NCBI GenBank assembly: GCA_944407095.1
Contig: OX097180.1
Span: 62,001 to 126,000 of the forward strand
Reading direction: 5' to 3'
DNA from: Candidatus Enterousia intestinigallinarum
GTDB lineage: Bacteria; Pseudomonadota; Alphaproteobacteria; Rs-D84
DNA length: 64,000 bases
Below the pieces are notes generated by a model. The model made no database searches, was not told the DNA's origin, and saw only the letters and a program-made list of their open reading frames with translations. The stretch's first letter is position 1, and every line of letters starts with the position of its first letter. A program made the translations under genes and the position numbers. Below, in pieces: positions 7,793-45,790 of the stretch.

Positions 7793-7839
7793 CTCCGCCA
7801 GGAATATGACACATCCCGTGGTAACCCCGCGGGATGTTT
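7793..7839. repeat. left 47-bp direct repeat (attachment-site-like) with intrinsic terminator
   Basis: A perfect match to 17465-17511. It begins with CTCCGCCA, the last bases of tRNA-Ser genes, then GGAATATGAC and an intrinsic terminator hairpin (ACATCCCG at 7811-7818, CGGGATGT at 7830-7837, then a T run). This looks like the 3' end of a tRNA-Ser gene with its own terminator, copied at both ends of a 9.7 kb element. Confidence 0.75.
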
Positions 7840-17101: not shown

Positions 17102-17237
17102 AGTTCTTCCTTTGGGTAATAAAAAAGCCCCGCCGGCATCGGGCAGAGCAATAAAAAACGGCGACGAAATCGCTTGCTTAACTTGCCGAGTATTATATCA
17201 AAAATTGGCTAAAAAATCAATAAAAAAGATAGATTTT

Positions 17238-17511
17238 GAATTAAATTCCCTGTTGTTGTATGCAATAGACCGTAAAATTGTCTACCACCGCTACAATACA
17301 AAACACGCCCCTGTGGCGTGATTTTTATTGTGTTTGATGATGTGGATTTGACCCCGGGACAAAAGGGTTCGAACCACTGCAAAAAGGCGGATGGGCGTAC
17401 GCCGGTTTGCGCGAATGCGCAAATTTTGCCGGGTGATGAAGCGTCTACGAAATAATCCCTTCGTCTCCGCCAGGAATATGACACATCCCGTGGTAACCCC
17501 GCGGGATGTTT
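17238..17511. repeat. right end of the accessory element: half-site and 47-bp direct repeat
   Basis: 17243-17284 repeats the left half-site with four mismatches. 17465-17511 is identical to the left 47-bp repeat and includes the terminator ACATCCCG/CGGGATGT. Just before it, 17454-17472 matches the last 19 bases of the tRNA-Ser at 45701-45790, so the right junction keeps more of a tRNA-Ser 3' end than the left. The 180 bp between the two blocks include a hairpin around CACGCCCC/GGCGTG (17305-17325) and no gene. I read this as the right boundary of an integrated element. Confidence 0.7.
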
Positions 17512-17583
17512 ATTAGAACAGCGTATTTGTATCAACCAGTGATTGAATATGTGTTCGTGTTTTTGCGTATCAGATTTTGTAAT

Positions 17584-17720
17584 TTGACAACTTGGTTTAT
17601 ATTGATAAAATATAGGCAAATATAAAGACGGGGTGCCAATGAATCGTATGTAAACTTATTCTTTCTATCAAGTTACTCGAATTATTCGGGGCGATTAAAG
17701 TTTACATAAAAGGCAACCTT
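17584..17720 (+). promoter_or_regulatory. promoter and attenuator-like leader of the ABC-F gene
   Basis: TTGACA (17584-17589), 16 nt, TAAAAT (17606-17611) form a near-consensus promoter. The leader holds a tiny ORF, ATG AAT CGT ATG TAA (17639-17653, MNRM). Its last codons form the left arm of a perfect 10-bp inverted repeat, ATGTAAACTT (17648-17657) with AAGTTTACAT (17698-17707). The right arm ends 13 nt before the ABC-F ATG and could hide its ribosome site. Ribosome stalling on the short ORF would change the fold, the known logic for antibiotic-induced ABC-F and methylase genes. Induction here is inferred. Confidence 0.6.
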
Positions 17721-19109
17721 ATGAAATCTATTTCTTTATTAAATATCAGCTTTGCATATCCCGGCTTGGACGATTTATTTACTGATTTATCGTATTCGTT
17801 CGGTGCGGATAAAATGGTCGCTATTATCGGGGACAATGGTGTCGGCAAGACAACATTATTAAAAATAATATCTGGTGATTTATTACCCGATTCTGGTCGG
17901 GTGGCACGTAATGCAACCCATCATTTATTAAATCAAATCAATATGGATGCAACAAAAAGTGGCGGTCAAAGCCAGCAACGGGCTTTGTCGCGTGCGTTTG
18001 ATTCTGGGGCGGATATTTTATTGTTGGATGAACCAACGAATAATCTGGATGCAAACGCCCGTCAGAACTTTTTCAAAAAACTGTTTTCTTATCGTGGCGG
18101 TGCAGTCATAGTATCGCACGACAGGGAATTATTAAATCAAATGGATGTTTTATTGGAATTGCACAATGGCAAGTTATCTGTATTCGGGGGCAACTATGAT
18201 TTCTATGTCGATCAGAAAAGACAACTGCAACAAAGCATAGAGTCCAGATATACTGATGCTCAGAAAGAGATTGCCAGGTTAAATGCCAGTGCAATGAAAT
18301 CTCAAAACACCCGCCAACATCACGAGGCCAAGCAACAAAAAGACAAGGCCAATAAATCGGCCGGATCAAAAATAGCGGCAAATGCGTTGAAGGGAAAAAG
18401 TCAAGAAACCGATGCAAAACGCAGAAATTTAATACAGACAAAATTAAACAAACAAATGGAACGCTCTGCTGAATTATCGGCACAAATGCGTGATGATATA
18501 ATAAAAATTCCATTGCCAAGTACAAAAGTTTATAACAAAGAAATCGTCAGGTTAGAAAATATATGTTTTTCTTATGGTGAAAAAAAGATTTTGTCAGATT
18601 TTGATTTCACAATGCGTACGGGCGAGCGTGTCAGGTTGGTCGGCGCTAATGGTTCCGGTAAAACTACACTTTTGAAATTGATAAGCGGTGATTTGTGCCC
18701 AACAGTGGGCAATGTAAAAGTATCGGGGAAAATAGCATATTTGAATCAGGATTTGTCTTTGTTGAAGCCCGACAAAACTGTTGTTGAAAATATTGCGGAT
18801 TATGCAGAAATTCTGCCACACGATGCGCATATTATTGCTGCGAATTTTGGATTTCGTGGTGACGCATCCAGGAAAAAAGTTCACGTTTTATCGGGTGGCG
18901 AATTATTAAAAGCAACGTTGGCGGCGGTGATTGGTGGCAAGCATCAGCCAGATTTACTGATATTGGATGAACCTACGAACAATCTGGACATAAAAAGTAC
19001 AACAGTGTTGGAAGATGCATTGAACCAGTATCGTGGTGCAATTTTAATCGTTTCACACGATGAAGTATTTATAAGCAATCTGCACATAGACAGATTTATA
19101 GCGATATAG
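17721..19109 (+). CDS. ABC-F family ATPase, ribosome-protection type likely
   Basis: A 462-residue protein with two ABC ATPase domains and no membrane segments. First Walker A is GDNGVGKTT (37-45), with a shortened helical part, a signature SGGQSQQRAL and ILLLDEPTNNLDA. A basic, coiled linker (about 170-260, many K, Q, R) follows. The second domain has GANGSGKTTLLKL, VLSGGELLKATLAA and LILDEPTNNLDI. ABC-F proteins bind the ribosomal E site; some give resistance to peptidyl-transferase drugs. Two ATPase signatures plus the short-ORF leader favour a resistance or translation-relief role over housekeeping Uup/EttA. It lies just outside the right repeat of the element. Confidence 0.82.
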   Translation: MKSISLLNISFAYPGLDDLFTDLSYSFGADKMVAIIGDNGVGKTTLLKIISGDLLPDSGRVARNATHHLLNQINMDATKSGGQSQQRALSRAFDSGADILLLDEPTNNLDANARQNFFKKLFSYRGGAVIVSHDRELLNQMDVLLELHNGKLSVFGGNYDFYVDQKRQLQQSIESRYTDAQKEIARLNASAMKSQNTRQHHEAKQQKDKANKSAGSKIAANALKGKSQETDAKRRNLIQTKLNKQMERSAELSAQMRDDIIKIPLPSTKVYNKEIVRLENICFSYGEKKILSDFDFTMRTGERVRLVGANGSGKTTLLKLISGDLCPTVGNVKVSGKIAYLNQDLSLLKPDKTVVENIADYAEILPHDAHIIAANFGFRGDASRKKVHVLSGGELLKATLAAVIGGKHQPDLLILDEPTNNLDIKSTTVLEDALNQYRGAILIVSHDEVFISNLHIDRFIAI

Positions 19110-22879: not shown

Positions 22880-25800
22880 TTACCACATTGTATAGCCCTC
22901 GTTACAGGTACGAACGCATTTCTTTCTGCCTTCGTCCCATACCATAGAACCAGTTTCGTCTTCATACAATTCGGTCGGACAAATCGGTACGCACTCATTG
23001 TTTTCCAGGTTGTACAATTCACCCTGGTACAGGCACGATGCGATTTCACATCCCTGGACGTAACTGCTGGCCGCCAGTTTGCCCAGTACGCTGTAGCGGT
23101 TTTTGCACTCGCCACACTGCTTGGTGCGTTCGTTTGTTTCAGCCGGATCGTTTGTATATCCCGGATTGCACATCGTTGCAACGCATTCGCCCCAGTCATT
23201 TATGTCGGAATCCCATTCCTTGAATCCGGAACCGTTTTCAACGTTGCAGGGTTGCATATCCGAAACGCACGCATTAGACGCCAGATGATATCCATATTCA
23301 CATTCTTTTATCATACAAGATCCAAATGCGTTCTTTTCAAAGTCCCACGTTCTTTCTGCAGATATCGCGTTTGGCGCACTGCATTCCTGAATGTTGACTT
23401 CGCACTTGTCACCGTTCGGATGATAGCCCAGCACGCATTCTGCCACCTGGCACGCGCCACCATCCTTGTACGACAGGGCATATTCGCGGTCGCACGGTAC
23501 ACAGGTGCCGTCCTTCATTTCATATCCAGCGTTACAGGATGTTTCCACACACACGCCGTCAATAATTTCGCACGGATTTCCTGTTGTGGATTCGCCCTTG
23601 TATTCGCATTCGTTCGGATAGAATGCCTTGTCGCTAACCGGAACGGCCGTTCCATTTACCACTTCGTACGCTTCACAGGCCTGATAGCAACCGCTTTCAT
23701 CCTTGGCGCCTGGTAATGACAATGCCCAGTCCCCGTTACCTAAATCAGCACAGGATTTCACATCATCACCCGGATTTTCCGGATCCGTTGTGCCGTCGCA
23801 GAAACTGCCTTCTGGACATTCGACGCATTGACCATTATCCAGTGTGTATCCCGCGGCGCAGCGCTTGATTTCACAGGTGTCCGGTATTCCATAGTAATCA
23901 CGTCCGTCCATTGCGGCGGCGTTTTGCGCCATTTCGCAATCACGATAGCACATTGCTTCATCGTCTGTACCCGCGTCAGAGTTCGGATATTGCCCGCCTG
24001 TCAGTGATGCACAGGTCTGCTGCTGGCCTTCGTTACATACGCTGCCGGCCGGACAGTTGATACAAGTGTTACCCACCTGCGAGAATCCTTCGTCGCACGA
24101 CGTTACATTACAGGTCTGACAGTCGGCTGTATAGTTACCGCCGGTTTCGTCATAGTTACAGGTCTGTTCACCCGAACCATTTTCGATATCACACGCCATA
24201 TCGTCGCGATAGCAATCCGAAGATGCGGCACTGGTTGTTGTTTCGGTTGTACCACCCAACGGACAGGCGTGGCGTGTCGTATCAACCGCCGGGCTGTAAT
24301 ACCCGATGCCCACGGCCATACAGTCGGTTGCCAATACCAGGTGGTCGTAATAGTATCCGGCATCGCAACTTGTCATCGTCGGCAGGTCGCAACTGGACGC
24401 ATATATAGCATCGTCATCTTCGCCACTGGTATAGTAGCACAGATATTCGCCAGTTCCGTGTTCTGCCTGGGTGTATGGCAGACCGTCCTTGTAACACAAC
24501 AGTATGCTGTCGGATGTTGTGCCGTTGGTCTTACCGTTCGCCGGGCAGGCGTGACGTTCAACGTCGCCAGAATCACTGTAGTAGTTCTGTTCAACCGCGA
24601 CGCAGTCAGTATCGTCCGGATTTTCCAGCCAATATCCGCCACGGCAACTGTCGATTACCTGGGTGTCACAGTCGCGCTGGTACACAGCGGACGCACCGTC
24701 CCCGCTGGAATAGAAGCAGCGTTGTGTTCCCGAACCATATACCGCTTCGTACGTCAGTCCTGTCTTAAAGCACTGCTGAACCATTGTTGCGGTTGTCGTA
24801 TCCGTATTGCCACCGTTCGGGCACTGGGTACGGGTGGTGATATCTTCACCGCTGTAGTATCCGTTGCCAACGGCCGCACAGTCCGGATTTTCATTTTCTG
24901 CATCTTCCAGCCAATATCCCGCGTCACAGGCCGTTATCACCTTATCCGTGCAGCTGGCGCTGTACGATGCCGCATCCGCGTCATAGTTACAGGTCTGTGT
25001 TCCGCTGCCGTGCGTTGCAGTGTATGTCAACTTGGTCTTATAGCATTTGGCTATAGAATCCGCGCCACTGGCCGATGAACCCTGTTCCGGACAGGCGTTT
25101 AATCCCTCGGGCGTGCCGCTGTCGGTTGCGAAGTTGCCGCCCGGGCAGTAGTGGTTTGCTGTACAGGTTTCACATTGTGTTCCGGTACCGGTATAGTATG
25201 TACCCGCTGCACAGTTTGTCGTTCCAGCCGACCATCTGGCGTATATAGTCGCCGGTTCGGTGGTTGTGAACGTCAATGCGGCTTCACTGGTCTGGAATTT
25301 ACCAGACGAACCGATTACTTGGGTGCCGCCAGATGTTTCGCTGTAATATCCCGCGAATTCGTATCCAGATTTTTCCGGAACGGTCGTCAGTGTATCTATT
25401 GACGTTGTCGCGCCTTCGTTACTGAACCAGCCGTTTGCGTATTTCAGATACACAGTTTCTGGTTCACCGTCAACATCGGCATTTTGGCCGTCCAGGTTCA
25501 CAGTGTACACGTTCGGCGTCCACATTGCATACAGTGTTGTATCCGTACCGTTTGCGGATATATTCGCACTGGTCGCCTGACCCGCATAATAGCACGGTCC
25601 GTTTCCATTACGGTCGGCACACCATCTGTCACCGCTGGTGTATCCCGGACGGGTTAGCCCACTTGTTGCGGGCAGGGTGCATTCGCCACTGTCGAACGTG
25701 CATTGCACGCTGGCCGGGGTGCTGCCAGTGCCACCGTTTTTATCCAGTGTAACTGTGTACTGGTTGGCCGCGCAGGACGGATTTTCAGAAACGTTGTTTT

Positions 25801-28800
25801 GTACCGTATAACCCGTTTTGCAGGTCACTGTAAACTCACAGGCCGCATATTCGTCGGCACTGATGCCGTACACAGTGTTTTCTGTTGCCGCGACTGATGT
25901 TGAATTGTCAACAGTCAAAGAACAGGTCTTATAGCAATCCGTGTAACTATCCGCATATTCGGATGATTCCACTTTGCCACCGGCCGTATCACGCGGACAC
26001 GCCGTTTGTTTTGTGTCACCAGCTGGGCTATAGAATCCACTTGTTGTGCCACTGCACAGGAACGAATTCTGTTGCGCGTACCAGTAACCAGCGATACAAC
26101 TCTTGACCTCTATGATGCTGCAGGCGTCATATTGTGATGTCGATGACTGATAGAAGCACTTTGCCGATGCAACACCATTCTTGAACCCATCATAAGGATC
26201 GAATATCTTATAGCACTGGGTTATAGATGTTGAACCCTTGTCTGATGTACCGCCATCCGGGCAGGCCAACGGGCTTGGTTCATCAGGCGGACAATAGTAT
26301 CCTTCGGGGCATTCATCGGTATCACCCCATACACAGGACGGATTCGCACTTGGGCTGTTCTGTGGGGTATAGTTCTCATCGCATTGCGCACGATATTGGC
26401 ATTGTGGATAGTTTGTGCCGTTATGGTACGCGTTGCCTGTCGATATACCCTGGCCGTTGTCAATTTCCAGTGTCGGCGCACAGGTCTTATAACAGTCGGT
26501 TATTGAAGTCGAACCCGCTGCGGACAGACCACTGTCTGGACACGCCTTGGCAATACCAGCTTCGCAGTAAGAGTTAGCGGGGCATTCTTCGGGTTCGCCT
26601 TCGTCAGAGCCACCCGGACAGGTTACACCGTCTTCGCACGGGGTACAGGTTGCACCCGTTGTTCCGTTTCCGGACGCGACATATCCCGCATCACAGTCCG
26701 CCGTGTATGTACAGGCCGGATATGTGCTGCCAGTCCAGTTGACCTTATCTTTATCCGCATTTGCTGTACCACCGGTTATCGGCTTGTCCGTACAGGTTTT
26801 GTAACACTGACTTTCAGCTGTTGCGCCACTGTCGGACGTACCACCGTCAGGACAGGCAATCGGACCACTGCCATCTTCTGGGCAGTATGAACCAGCCGGA
26901 CACGCATCTGGATCTGCCCAGACACAGGTCGGATTTGGTCCCGGACTGTTTTGTGCGGTATAGTTTTCGTCACACTGTGCCGTATATTGACAGGCCGGAT
27001 ATGCAGAACCAGTATAGTACGCATTACCATTTGATGTGGCTGTACCATTATCAATATCCAATGTCGGCGCACAGGTCTTATAGCAATCGGTTATATCACC
27101 CGCACCGGCCGCGGATGTACCACCCGACGGACAGGCCTTTACAATACCTTCTTCGCAGTATGAGCCAGCCGGACATTCTTCTGGTTCGGTGTCATCTGTA
27201 CCACCCGGGCAGTTCACACCGTCAGTACACTTTTCGCACGTTGCGCTTGCTGTGCCCTGATTCTTGGCAACATAGCCAGCATTACAGGTTGCAGTATATG
27301 TACAGGCCGGATATGACGAACCATTATAATTTGGTGTTTCATCAACTGGCGCGCGTGTTCCACCGGTGACTGAACCGCCAGAGCAGGTTATATAGCACGC
27401 AGTGTTGCTGGTTGAACCGGTTGGCGATGTACCAGCACCCGGACAGTCGGTTCCGCATCCAGCGGTACCGATATTTGCGCTGCCGGTACCCGGACAGAAC
27501 ATTCCCGCCGGACAGGTCACGTGTTCGGTGCCGTTATAGTACTTACCAGCTTGGCACGTGGTTGTTTGCTGTGACCAGCAGGCATATCTGGTTGCGGCAC
27601 TGGTAAATTTTTCCTGGAATATTCCGCTGGTGCAACCCGCAGACGTACCCCAACCAGTAAATGCATAACCATTACGTGTCAAACCAGACCCATCAGGCAG
27701 AGTGCACATTTGACCGTGCTTACAGGTTTGCACAGCATCATTTGTGCCGGTTGAACCATTTACAGTACCGGAACCACCGTTCTTTTTCAGTGTGATTGTA
27801 TATTCGTCTGGTTCGCAGCTTCTGCCGTCGCTGGACAGATGATATCCGTCGTTACATTCAAATGTTTCGCCACCACCCGGACAGGTCGCGTTCGGAACGC
27901 ACGCGGCGCATCCGCTGCCCGACAGATAGTAGTTTGCTGCACACGATGTTGCGGCACAGCTTCTGGTTCCGCCCTTGGTCACGGTTCCACTGACCGCGGT
28001 GGAATTGGCAACGTCCGCTGTTGTACAGTTGCGATAACATACGCTGTTTGTTTGTGAATTACATACATTATATGTACCCAATGTAAATCCAGAAACGCTG
28101 CTGCACGATACACTGCAGTTTGAACATCCCGAACCGTTTGGATACTGGGTTGGTCCACAGCTGCAGGTTCCGGCACCTGTCGGATTTGATGCACAGGCCG
28201 TCCATTGTGCGGTCAATGTTGTGTTGCTCGTTGTGTTATATACGTAATCACTGCTGGCGTTCGGATAACTGCCACCCCAACTTTTGAACGTATATCCCGG
28301 GCGAGTAAATGTGTTTGCCGCTTTGGTTGTAAAGTTTTCCTTGTACTTTACATTTTGGGTTTGATCTGCACCGGTGCCACCACCATTTTTATATGTAATG
28401 GTGTATGTTGCTGCTTCGCACGCGGTTCCAGCAGAATTTTTAACATATCCCGCATTACACGTGAATGACAAAGTACACGTTGATGCCGCCGCGCTGCACG
28501 AACCGCCATAATACTGCGTGCCACTGGTTGTTTGTGAACCGTGTGTACAGGTTGCATTTGCCGGACAAGTTTGCTTTGTACAGGCACGTGTACAGTTCTT
28601 GTAACATTTAGATGAACCGCCATCGTTGCCAGCCGCGGACAATTTGTATGTCCCGTCACCCACAGAGCTACACGCCGGGCAGGTTGTCCCATTGTCATAG
28701 TAACCCGCATTTGCCGTAACCGCCGCAACCGTTTTTGTACAGTTAGTTGGTGTACACGTTGTATCAGTCGCGCTTTGATAATCTTTATATGTGCAAGATC

Positions 28801-29680
28801 CCGGTGTACAGGCTGTCCACGATGTAACACTGGCGCAGTTGGCCGGAACACTGCCGTTCACCTGGGATCCTGTCTTCGTTTTTGTTACATAGCAGTACGC
28901 ACTGCTGATATTGCCGCCGTCGGATTTCGGATAACCAGACGGGCAGGCACTGCAGCTTGTTCCGTTCACATAGAAGTTTGCCTTTGCTGTGACGGCCTTT
29001 GGTGTTTTGGTACAGGATTCATTATTTGTGCTGCATCCGGACTTGATTGTGCCGTCACCATTGCCGGCTGCATTGGAATACGCGACATATTCGCACGCCG
29101 GATTAGAACAGGCATTCCACGATGTAACACTGGCGCAGTTTGTTGGCGTACTGCCGTTCACCTGGGAACCAGTCCACGCACGGGACTTTGTATTACTGTA
29201 GCAGTCGGTTATGGCATCGGAACCCGCGGCGGAGTTTGGATAGTTAGTGGGGCACGAGTCGGTTATACCCTGATCTTTTGTTGCGCTGTAACTATACTGT
29301 GTTCCGCCCTTGCAATAAGAACCCGCCGGGCAGTTTACACACGCCGTCTGACCCTTTGGCAGATATTTACCCGCCGCGCAGGTTACCTTGATAATAGAAC
29401 ACCCACTGGTGGATGTTGATGAACCAGACGCAGTTCCATTTGAACTGTATCCCTTGTTACAGGTACAAGTCGCTGCTGTGCCACCAGATGATGTTGAATT
29501 TGCACCACAGGCATTACAACTGTTACCGGCAACTTGCCCACCACTCATATAATAGTTGGTGTTACACGATGTATATTTTTTATATGATGGACACGAATAT
29601 CCCGCAGCCAACACATTGCCCGTAAAAAATGCAATGAATAAAGATGCAAAAATGCCCAGAAAATAGCGACTTTTTCCCAT
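22880..29680 (-). CDS. giant exported Cys-rich repeat protein with InlB-type repeats
   Basis: 2266 residues from ATG 29680, with GAGGAAAG just upstream. The first roughly 25 residues form a Sec signal peptide (FLGIFASLFIAFFTGNVLA). The rest is dense in CxxC-like units such as CPAGSYC, NCPAGS and ACPNGG, resembling ephrin-receptor/GCC2-GCC3-type EGF-like modules. At least four InlB/Flg_new-type repeats (YTITYKNGGG ... LTAQW, YTVTLDKNGG ... LYAMW) are interspersed. Two near-identical tandem units of about 195 residues lie near 26.2-27.25 kb. There is no C-terminal membrane anchor, sortase motif or autotransporter barrel; it ends EGYTMW. Probably a disulfide-rich surface or secreted adhesin-like protein. 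It is a single-gene unit. Confidence 0.85.
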   Translation of the reverse strand: MGKSRYFLGIFASLFIAFFTGNVLAAGYSCPSYKKYTSCNTNYYMSGGQVAGNSCNACGANSTSSGGTAATCTCNKGYSSNGTASGSSTSTSGCSIIKVTCAAGKYLPKGQTACVNCPAGSYCKGGTQYSYSATKDQGITDSCPTNYPNSAAGSDAITDCYSNTKSRAWTGSQVNGSTPTNCASVTSWNACSNPACEYVAYSNAAGNGDGTIKSGCSTNNESCTKTPKAVTAKANFYVNGTSCSACPSGYPKSDGGNISSAYCYVTKTKTGSQVNGSVPANCASVTSWTACTPGSCTYKDYQSATDTTCTPTNCTKTVAAVTANAGYYDNGTTCPACSSVGDGTYKLSAAGNDGGSSKCYKNCTRACTKQTCPANATCTHGSQTTSGTQYYGGSCSAAASTCTLSFTCNAGYVKNSAGTACEAATYTITYKNGGGTGADQTQNVKYKENFTTKAANTFTRPGYTFKSWGGSYPNASSDYVYNTTSNTTLTAQWTACASNPTGAGTCSCGPTQYPNGSGCSNCSVSCSSVSGFTLGTYNVCNSQTNSVCYRNCTTADVANSTAVSGTVTKGGTRSCAATSCAANYYLSGSGCAACVPNATCPGGGETFECNDGYHLSSDGRSCEPDEYTITLKKNGGSGTVNGSTGTNDAVQTCKHGQMCTLPDGSGLTRNGYAFTGWGTSAGCTSGIFQEKFTSAATRYACWSQQTTTCQAGKYYNGTEHVTCPAGMFCPGTGSANIGTAGCGTDCPGAGTSPTGSTSNTACYITCSGGSVTGGTRAPVDETPNYNGSSYPACTYTATCNAGYVAKNQGTASATCEKCTDGVNCPGGTDDTEPEECPAGSYCEEGIVKACPSGGTSAAGAGDITDCYKTCAPTLDIDNGTATSNGNAYYTGSAYPACQYTAQCDENYTAQNSPGPNPTCVWADPDACPAGSYCPEDGSGPIACPDGGTSDSGATAESQCYKTCTDKPITGGTANADKDKVNWTGSTYPACTYTADCDAGYVASGNGTTGATCTPCEDGVTCPGGSDEGEPEECPANSYCEAGIAKACPDSGLSAAGSTSITDCYKTCAPTLEIDNGQGISTGNAYHNGTNYPQCQYRAQCDENYTPQNSPSANPSCVWGDTDECPEGYYCPPDEPSPLACPDGGTSDKGSTSITQCYKIFDPYDGFKNGVASAKCFYQSSTSQYDACSIIEVKSCIAGYWYAQQNSFLCSGTTSGFYSPAGDTKQTACPRDTAGGKVESSEYADSYTDCYKTCSLTVDNSTSVAATENTVYGISADEYAACEFTVTCKTGYTVQNNVSENPSCAANQYTVTLDKNGGTGSTPASVQCTFDSGECTLPATSGLTRPGYTSGDRWCADRNGNGPCYYAGQATSANISANGTDTTLYAMWTPNVYTVNLDGQNADVDGEPETVYLKYANGWFSNEGATTSIDTLTTVPEKSGYEFAGYYSETSGGTQVIGSSGKFQTSEAALTFTTTEPATIYARWSAGTTNCAAGTYYTGTGTQCETCTANHYCPGGNFATDSGTPEGLNACPEQGSSASGADSIAKCYKTKLTYTATHGSGTQTCNYDADAASYSASCTDKVITACDAGYWLEDAENENPDCAAVGNGYYSGEDITTRTQCPNGGNTDTTTATMVQQCFKTGLTYEAVYGSGTQRCFYSSGDGASAVYQRDCDTQVIDSCRGGYWLENPDDTDCVAVEQNYYSDSGDVERHACPANGKTNGTTSDSILLCYKDGLPYTQAEHGTGEYLCYYTSGEDDDAIYASSCDLPTMTSCDAGYYYDHLVLATDCMAVGIGYYSPAVDTTRHACPLGGTTETTTSAASSDCYRDDMACDIENGSGEQTCNYDETGGNYTADCQTCNVTSCDEGFSQVGNTCINCPAGSVCNEGQQQTCASLTGGQYPNSDAGTDDEAMCYRDCEMAQNAAAMDGRDYYGIPDTCEIKRCAAGYTLDNGQCVECPEGSFCDGTTDPENPGDDVKSCADLGNGDWALSLPGAKDESGCYQACEAYEVVNGTAVPVSDKAFYPNECEYKGESTTGNPCEIIDGVCVETSCNAGYEMKDGTCVPCDREYALSYKDGGACQVAECVLGYHPNGDKCEVNIQECSAPNAISAERTWDFEKNAFGSCMIKECEYGYHLASNACVSDMQPCNVENGSGFKEWDSDINDWGECVATMCNPGYTNDPAETNERTKQCGECKNRYSVLGKLAASSYVQGCEIASCLYQGELYNLENNECVPICPTELYEDETGSMVWDEGRKKCVRTCNEGYTMW
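26210..27250 (-). repeat. tandem internal repeat within the giant protein
   Basis: Two successive units share DGV.CPGG, EPEECPA.SYCE, ITDCYKTCAPTL, CDENYT.QNSP and ACPDGGTSD in the same order, about 590 bp apart in their starting motifs. Recent duplication within the gene is the simplest reading. Confidence 0.65.
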
Positions 29681-29815
29681 ACTTTCCTCTCTTTTATATT
29701 TTATTCTAGAAAAAATCACTTATATCGTGCAAGGGAAAAATAAAGAAATATAAATATAAAATAATTATAGATAGCAAATTGATAATAAAAAACGCGCCAT
29801 CGGCGCGTAAATGTG

Positions 29816-45700: not shown

Positions 45701-45790
45701 GGAGACGTGGCAGAGTGGTTGAATGCGCGCGACTCGAAATCGCGTATACGGGCAACCGTATCAAGGGTTCAAATCCCTTCGTCTCCGCCA
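45701..45790 (+). tRNA. tRNA-Ser (CGA)
   Basis: 90 nt with long variable arm and encoded CCA. Acceptor GGAGACG/CGTCTCC, anticodon loop CTCGAAA, variable stem TACGGG CAA CCGTA. Its last 19 bases reappear at 17454-17472 at the right end of the accessory element. Confidence 0.93.

Follow-up and report, generated by a model that had tools for sequence, protein, structure and literature searches.

A Minimal Leader ORF Within a Conserved Hairpin as a Putative Translational Attenuator of an Alphaproteobacterial ABC-F Gene

Organization of the ABC-F Locus

The stretch of DNA analysed (64 kb, hereafter the window) carries an ABC-F gene preceded by a promoter, a leader ORF of four codons with its own ribosome-binding site, and an inverted repeat (Table 1). 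The promoter agrees with the consensus at 11 of 12 positions and has a TG preceding the −10 box; promoter-like sites (at least 8 of 12) were also found in 67 of the 69 orthologue upstreams with enough sequence. The initial annotation had described a promoter followed by the ORF M-N-R-M-stop, together with a 10-bp inverted repeat that uses the end of the ORF as its left arm and places its right arm just upstream of the ABC-F ribosome site, and each of these elements was recovered. The arms are ATGTAAACTT (17648-17657) and AAGTTTACAT (17698-17707), forming 11 bp when U17647-A17708 is counted, and the right arm ends at 17707, with the ribosome site starting at 17708. An outer helix that was absent from that annotation, P1, takes in the ABC-F ribosome site itself, pairing 17630-17637 with 17712-17720.

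Table 1. Features of the ABC-F leader region and gene in the window.
Feature	Position	Strand	Basis
Sigma-70-type promoter, TTGACA (17584-17589), 16-nt spacer, TAAAAT (17606-17611)	17584-17611	+	Sequence; similar sites in relatives
Leader ribosome-binding site, GACGGGG	17627-17633	+	Sequence; Shine-Dalgarno-like word in 70/71 leaders
Helix P1, 5' strand (GGGGUGCC), directly 5' of leader ATG	17630-17637	+	Fold; covariation in relatives
Leader ORF, M-N-R-M-stop (ATG AAT CGT ATG TAA)	17639-17653	+	Sequence and conservation
Helix P2, 5' strand, shared with the final codon and stop of the leader ORF	17647-17657	+	Repeat, fold, covariation
Helix P3, apical hairpin (CUCGAAUUAUUCGGG)	17676-17690	+	Fold; covariation in relatives
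Helix P2, 3' strand	17698-17708	+	Repeat, fold
ABC-F ribosome-binding site, AAAAGG	17708-17713	+	Sequence
Helix P1, 3' strand (GGCAACCUU), ABC-F ribosome site and spacer	17712-17720	+	Fold
ABC-F gene, ribosomal-protection-like, 462 aa, ATG at 17721	17721-19109	+	ORF and protein-family searches

The frequency of such an arrangement was estimated with a strict scan, requiring an ATG with two or three more codons and a stop, a Shine-Dalgarno sequence in front, and a perfect arm of at least 8 bp starting inside the ORF. Only 1 of 982 segments of 260 bases, taken over both strands of the window, contained an ORF in a repeat of this kind, and the single hit among the 121 ORF upstreams of the window was the ABC-F leader site; the same scan flagged 44 of 71 orthologue upstreams. 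Searches against the Rfam leader families returned nothing above the gathering score near the site, and no match with an E-value up to 10 in the region 17200-17800 overlapped positions 17584-17720. The assignment of the DNA to Alphaproteobacteria agrees with an alpha-type tmRNA.

Upstream of this locus, identical 47-bp direct repeats (7793-7839 and 17465-17511) flank about 9.7 kb encoding a broken recombinase, a GHKL/restriction-like ATPase, a C5 methyltransferase (DrmMII/MTase_II), and DUF488 and DUF4238 proteins. The segment resembles an integrated island of the defence type, and its end lies 73 bp upstream of the ABC-F promoter. Overlapping the 47-bp repeat, 20 bases (17454-17473) are identical to the 3' end of the tRNA-Ser located at 45701-45790 and may represent an attachment-site remnant; a tmRNA considered at 17338-17520 was discarded, as there was no significant match to the tmRNA and the tRNA-Ser 3' end was found there instead. 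On the opposite strand, positions 22880-29719 hold an ORF of 2279 aa that is Cys-rich and repetitive.

Characteristics of the ABC-F Protein

The product of the gene was assigned by NCBIfam to the ribosomal-protection-like ABC-F family NF000355, with a score of 380.5 that lies just at the curated cut-off of 380. The Vga, Msr, and EttA models ranked next, far below their own cut-offs; the Uup score was also far below its cut-off. Five orthologues scored between 377 and 398 against NF000355, two of them above 380 and three at 377-379. The protein has two ABC domains, and in the first of them the distance from Walker A to the signature is 42 aa, compared with 102-130 aa in the other ABC-Fs where both motifs were found, so that the insertion present in those proteins is absent. 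The linker between the H-switch and the second Walker A (177 aa) is as long as in the resistance ABC-Fs Vga (173), MsrE (177), LsaE (173), and MsrA (176); shorter linkers were observed in OptrA (143), PoxtA (152), and the other ABC-F of the genome (152). In the ABC-F tree, the leader-bearing clade forms one group (100/100) whose sister comprises ABC-Fs of Dyadobacter, rhizobia, and enterobacterial plasmids (90/86), with Msr, Vga, and Lsa apart; some long branches meet in this tree (MsrE/MsrA, OptrA/Rhizobium), and one Lachnospiraceae row was dropped from it. The product is a probable ribosome-protecting protein. The other ABC-F of the genome (L134, at about 592 kb of G000:C1) groups with PoxtA at full support and may be a housekeeping relative.

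Conservation of the Leader ORF

Of the 156 genomes of the genus, 76 encode the ABC-F orthologue, which also occurs in six other genera of the family within a set of 201 genomes of the order. The initial annotation had named a lack of conservation of the leader among the findings that would speak against its proposal; the leader is conserved, as an ORF of three or four codons closed by TAA precedes the gene in 74 of the 76 congeners, and leaders are also found in all six of the other genera (MRMI and MRIM twice each, MNIM, and MRMM; one closed by TGA). The two remaining congeners are G172, in which the match begins at residue 57 and the 5' end is altered, and G175, whose contig begins inside the gene. 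Leaders were searched as ORFs of three to four codons lying 70-100 bases before the gene start; the gene start was set by hand for L012, L015, and L061 and the leader for L015, while the other frame of L061 was dropped, the second frame of L066 ignored, and the longer frame of L077 used.

All 71 upstream regions compared carry a leader of three or four codons that always ends in TAA, starting with ATG (66), GTG (3), or TTG (2). The encoded peptides are MRM (31), MSRM (14), MRI (5), MSI (4), MSR (3), MNRM, MRK, MSK, and MNK (two each), and MNRI, MSL, MSM, MLRM, MHM, and MCL (one each). Three additional congeners (G017, G060, and G177) carry MCK, MRI, and MSRM, and in G026, where the genus protein search missed the protein, MSR precedes an ABC-F start. 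The constant elements are the start codon, a stop after three or four codons, and the distance to the helix. The left arm begins somewhere from leader base 6 to base 14, close enough for a ribosome positioned on the start codon to reach it. In contrast, a second ABC-F (33-34% identity) encoded by four congeners (L129-L132) has no such leader.

Beyond the family, tiny leaders were recognized by eye before sister ABC-F genes on Klebsiella, E. coli, and Salmonella plasmids, encoding MNK (L139), MNN (L146), and MRI (L147), in each case with a repeat arm that begins at the stop codon of the leader; none of the three was flagged by the strict scan. The L139 leader occurs in 24 plasmid records, 20 of which hold a version that is 90-95% identical, and the one version of these 20 that was inspected (L151) has a shorter MNK leader without the left arm. 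Such a leader was not found in the upstream listing of the rhizobial relative L136; for L137, the listing began inside the gene, and the leader region was viewed as raw sequence only. A 37%-identical ABC-F of another family (L133, genome G058) possibly has a longer leader, MRHEEITFLKY, with codons that by eye could pair with the ribosome site of the gene.

Structure and Covariation of the Leader RNA

The leader RNA folds into one hairpin with three helices. P1 pairs the bases between the leader ribosome site and the leader AUG with the ABC-F ribosome site and its spacer (for example, GAUAAAAACC with GGUUUUUAUC), P2 pairs the leader stop and the bases that follow with those preceding the ABC-F ribosome site, and P3 is apical. 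In the window, P1 is short and bulged (7 bp). Taken by itself, the leader sequence of the window shows no unusual stability (z −1.03, with 33 of 200 shuffled versions folding equally well), and the case for the structure therefore rests on conservation and covariation among the relatives.

For this comparison, 48 three-codon leaders were aligned with MAFFT (alignment A2), which omits all the four-codon ones, G160 and G009 (near copies of G118), G164, G163, and G178. In the three helices, 91.1% of the cells are paired, compared with 85.1% (sd 0.4) in shuffles and 35-47% in slid versions. Two-sided changes were observed at 13 pairs, and covariation reached 0.275 against 0.170 in a shuffle control that leaves the relatedness of the rows in. 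Several pairs at helix ends are often broken, such as 33-103 in 18 of 44 cells. The TAA of the leader is invariant in the 48 rows, although the pairs that involve its two A residues are disrupted or gapped in 22 and 12 rows, respectively, so that the stop is conserved in its own right.

Counts of pairs may be biased by relatedness among the rows; the changes were therefore mapped by parsimony onto one protein tree comprising 38 of the 48 rows. A total of 27 two-sided pair-to-pair changes was inferred (5 in P1, 4 in P2, and 18 in P3), compared with 0-9 for partners slid by one to three columns, while changes to or from the unpaired state numbered 59, compared with 105-145 for slid partners. In addition, for both P1 and P2 the strands pair better with their own partners than with swapped ones (0 of 20000 permutations). 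The clade of the window has its own arm sequence, in which L039 shows a two-sided change from AUGUAAACUU/AAGUUUACAU to AUAUAAACUU/AAGUUUAUAU. Although this clade was excluded when the covariance model was built, the model still recovers the site in the window (29.3 bits) as well as those of the six other genera (21.7-42.8 bits). In the genus, 56 of 57 matches of the RNA model lie before an ABC-F start, as judged by coordinates, with G026 and G017 inspected. Second matches in G120:C17 (38.9 bits) and G050:C47 (34.8 bits) lie at hairpins behind genes, with no gene with a leader following, and no other gene was thus found under the motif among the matches inspected; further matches occur in G155:C6 and G142:C1 (E 0.03-0.05).

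Modelled Effect of a Ribosome on the Leader

The accessibility of the ABC-F ribosome site was calculated with a folding model that assumes a ribosome footprint of 15 bases on either side. Over the 71 sequences, a ribosome on the leader start lowers the mean cost of opening the site (−13 to +3) from 8.18 to 3.53 kcal/mol, the gain exceeding 1 kcal/mol in 68 sequences and remaining below that value in three. A ribosome at the leader stop gives a similar value (3.78 kcal/mol), whereas the cost stays at 7.60 kcal/mol with the ribosome on P3 instead, and shuffled leaders show no drop (5.58 to 5.48 kcal/mol). Disruption of this leader-bearing structure, whose helices covary, is thus predicted to free the ABC-F site. 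For the plasmid leaders, the modelled release is clear for L146 (14.9 to 3.8) and L139 (15.1 to 8.5) and small for L147 (11.6 to 9.8).

Proposed Mechanism and Alternative Explanations

These observations favour, with a probability of roughly 0.78, a 5' leader that acts as a one-hairpin translational attenuator and responds to ribosomes stalled at initiation or immediately thereafter. The attenuator has a strong basis in the conserved leader, the conserved and covarying helices, the conserved geometry, the modelled release, and a leader in the window that holds no terminator-like site. The attenuator layout proposed in the initial annotation is likewise supported, since leader, helices, and position are conserved in the genus and six further genera, and the protein is ribosomal-protection-like. 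In the absence of drug, the RNA segment between roughly 17630 and 17720 would fold back on itself, leaving the ABC-F ribosome site up to the AUG paired with the bases before the leader AUG (P1), with P1 stacked on P2 and P3. We infer that the leader is translated and that ribosomes starting on it would complete its three or four codons at once and leave. An antibiotic, presumably of the pleuromutilin, lincosamide, or streptogramin A type, would hold ribosomes at or just after initiation; a ribosome held on the leader AUG would occupy the 5' strand of P1 together with the beginning of P2, the two helices would open, and the ABC-F protein could be translated and free the ribosomes, conferring resistance. 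In this way, an antibiotic-stalled ribosome could probably turn the protection on.

An alternative is that the peptide, not the start codon, is informative, a short Arg-containing sequence and a macrolide- or phenicol-like drug halting leader translation at one particular codon, as happens in the erm or msrD leaders. Arg is indeed encoded in 59 of 71 leaders through five different codons (CGT 46, CGC 5, AGA 4, CGA 2, CGG 2), R, K, or H in 64, and five of the six leaders of other genera begin with M-R; the consensus published for cplR is MR[I/M]. However, 12 of the 71 leaders lack Arg (MSI, MSK, MNK, MSL, MSM, MHM, and MCL), seven lack R, K, and H altogether, and the leaders of vmlR work without Arg, so that the minimal Arg stall sequence suggested in the initial annotation did not find support; with peptides as varied as MRM, MSRM, MSI, and MNK, a strict Arg-dependent stall is unlikely. 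Moreover, a peptide of three residues barely extends into the exit tunnel, the site of macrolide action, and the modelled release is alike for a ribosome at the start or at the stop, which means that the geometry does not need a later stall. We consider this explanation improbable, and we give still less credit to an always-on coupling, in which ordinary leader translation, free of any arrest, would prevent the hairpin from closing and set a constant ABC-F level with no drug sensing. Both leader and gene have start codons and ribosome sites, and sequence proves no signal; but an ORF of three or four codons would be occupied only briefly, a strongly conserved occluding helix would be pointless, and the known three-codon leaders of the same gene class are drug-induced.

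Transcription attenuation, with all or part of the hairpin acting as a terminator prevented by leader translation, as in vmlR, cplR, and msrD, would match the published ABC-F leaders, where terminators are the rule, and a U run lies some bases past P2 in many three-codon relatives. However, A and G residues intervene between P2 and this run, which is absent in the clade of the window (GGCAACCUU), and P2 is A-U rich. The scan of the window found no intrinsic terminator between leader and gene (17612-17900), the relatives having been inspected by eye, and the sole terminator-like site in 17300-17900 is upstream of the promoter, which leaves this mechanism very little probability. Least credible of all, with hardly any weight, is a DNA operator for a regulator with the tiny ORF as a coincidence. 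A 10-bp dyad downstream of a promoter can serve in that role, but its sequence changes while the pairing is kept, 133 of 1254 paired cells in the alignment are G-U, three helices are nested, and the ORF occurs in 71 of 71 upstreams.

Comparison with Known ABC-F Leaders

In attenuators of the cat-86/cmlA type, the ribosome site of the resistance gene is sequestered in a single hairpin, which opens when a ribosome occupies a short leader that overlaps the left arm. Those leaders are longer, and the ribosome stalls at a set inner codon by drug- and peptide-specific arrest. The leader described here is likewise a one-hairpin translational attenuator in its layout, but unlike them it has only three to four codons. 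It also resembles streptococcal msrD (PMC10314930) in placing an ABC-F gene under leader control; the msrD leader differs in relying on a macrolide-specific elongation arrest and a terminator (as cited in PMC9226507).

The closest parallels are drug-induced three-codon uORFs with terminators, responding to start-arresting drugs, which have been described for vmlR and cplR (PMC9226507, PMC10201436). According to the vmlR report, the Bacillus subtilis gene is preceded by a three-codon uORF (MIN) that has its own ribosome site and lies in a stem bulge before the ABC-F gene (Takada 2022, PMC9226507). Its start codon and ribosome site are essential and its peptide is variable (MIN, MDN, MDK, MRK), MIN, MDN, and MDK being functional without Arg and MRK the least efficient, and the toeprint is located 16 bases downstream of the A (PMC9226507). 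The leader described here shares the tiny ORF with its own ribosome site, the location within a structure, the ABC-F gene downstream, and the variable peptide. In contrast, vmlR combines a terminator/anti-terminator over 219 nt with a separate hairpin on its ribosome site (PMC9226507), while the leader described here spans about 100 nt, a single hairpin directly occludes the ribosome site, and no terminator was found. The uORF consensus of Clostridioides difficile cplR, MR[I/M] (Obana 2023, PMC10201436), is matched here by MRI and MRM (5 and 31 of 71), also with an ABC-F gene downstream; the cplR terminator, however, also hides the ribosome site, in a 212-nt leader of a member of Bacillota and not of Alphaproteobacteria (PMC10201436). 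Further related literature includes PMC6310831, PMC11550727, and PMC10219788.

A wider proposal is that such ORFs act as start-codon sensors, the peptide being nearly irrelevant, which report initiation-frozen ribosomes through one hairpin and constitute an old, pseudomonadota-wide control of ABC-F genes that includes the sister genes on enterobacterial resistance plasmids; we put this forward only tentatively and regard it as rather doubtful in that breadth. Within one alphaproteobacterial family, many species together offer about 80 natural variants of a leader of three to four codons, and with these the question whether start-arresting drugs care about the first codons becomes testable. The leader also suggests an inducible intrinsic ribosome protection in these Alphaproteobacteria, and the scan rule can be applied to leaders too short for gene callers.

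By titles and abstract openings, no leader of an alphaproteobacterial or Gram-negative ABC-F gene was found in the literature, which is weak evidence of novelty as subscription journals lie mostly outside this coverage. The drug-sensing ABC-F leaders described so far in the sources consulted belong to Bacillota and have terminators (PMC9226507, PMC10201436). What seems new is the compact, apparently purely translational form in Alphaproteobacteria, whose terminator-free one-hairpin design sets it apart from the transcription attenuators of vmlR and cplR.
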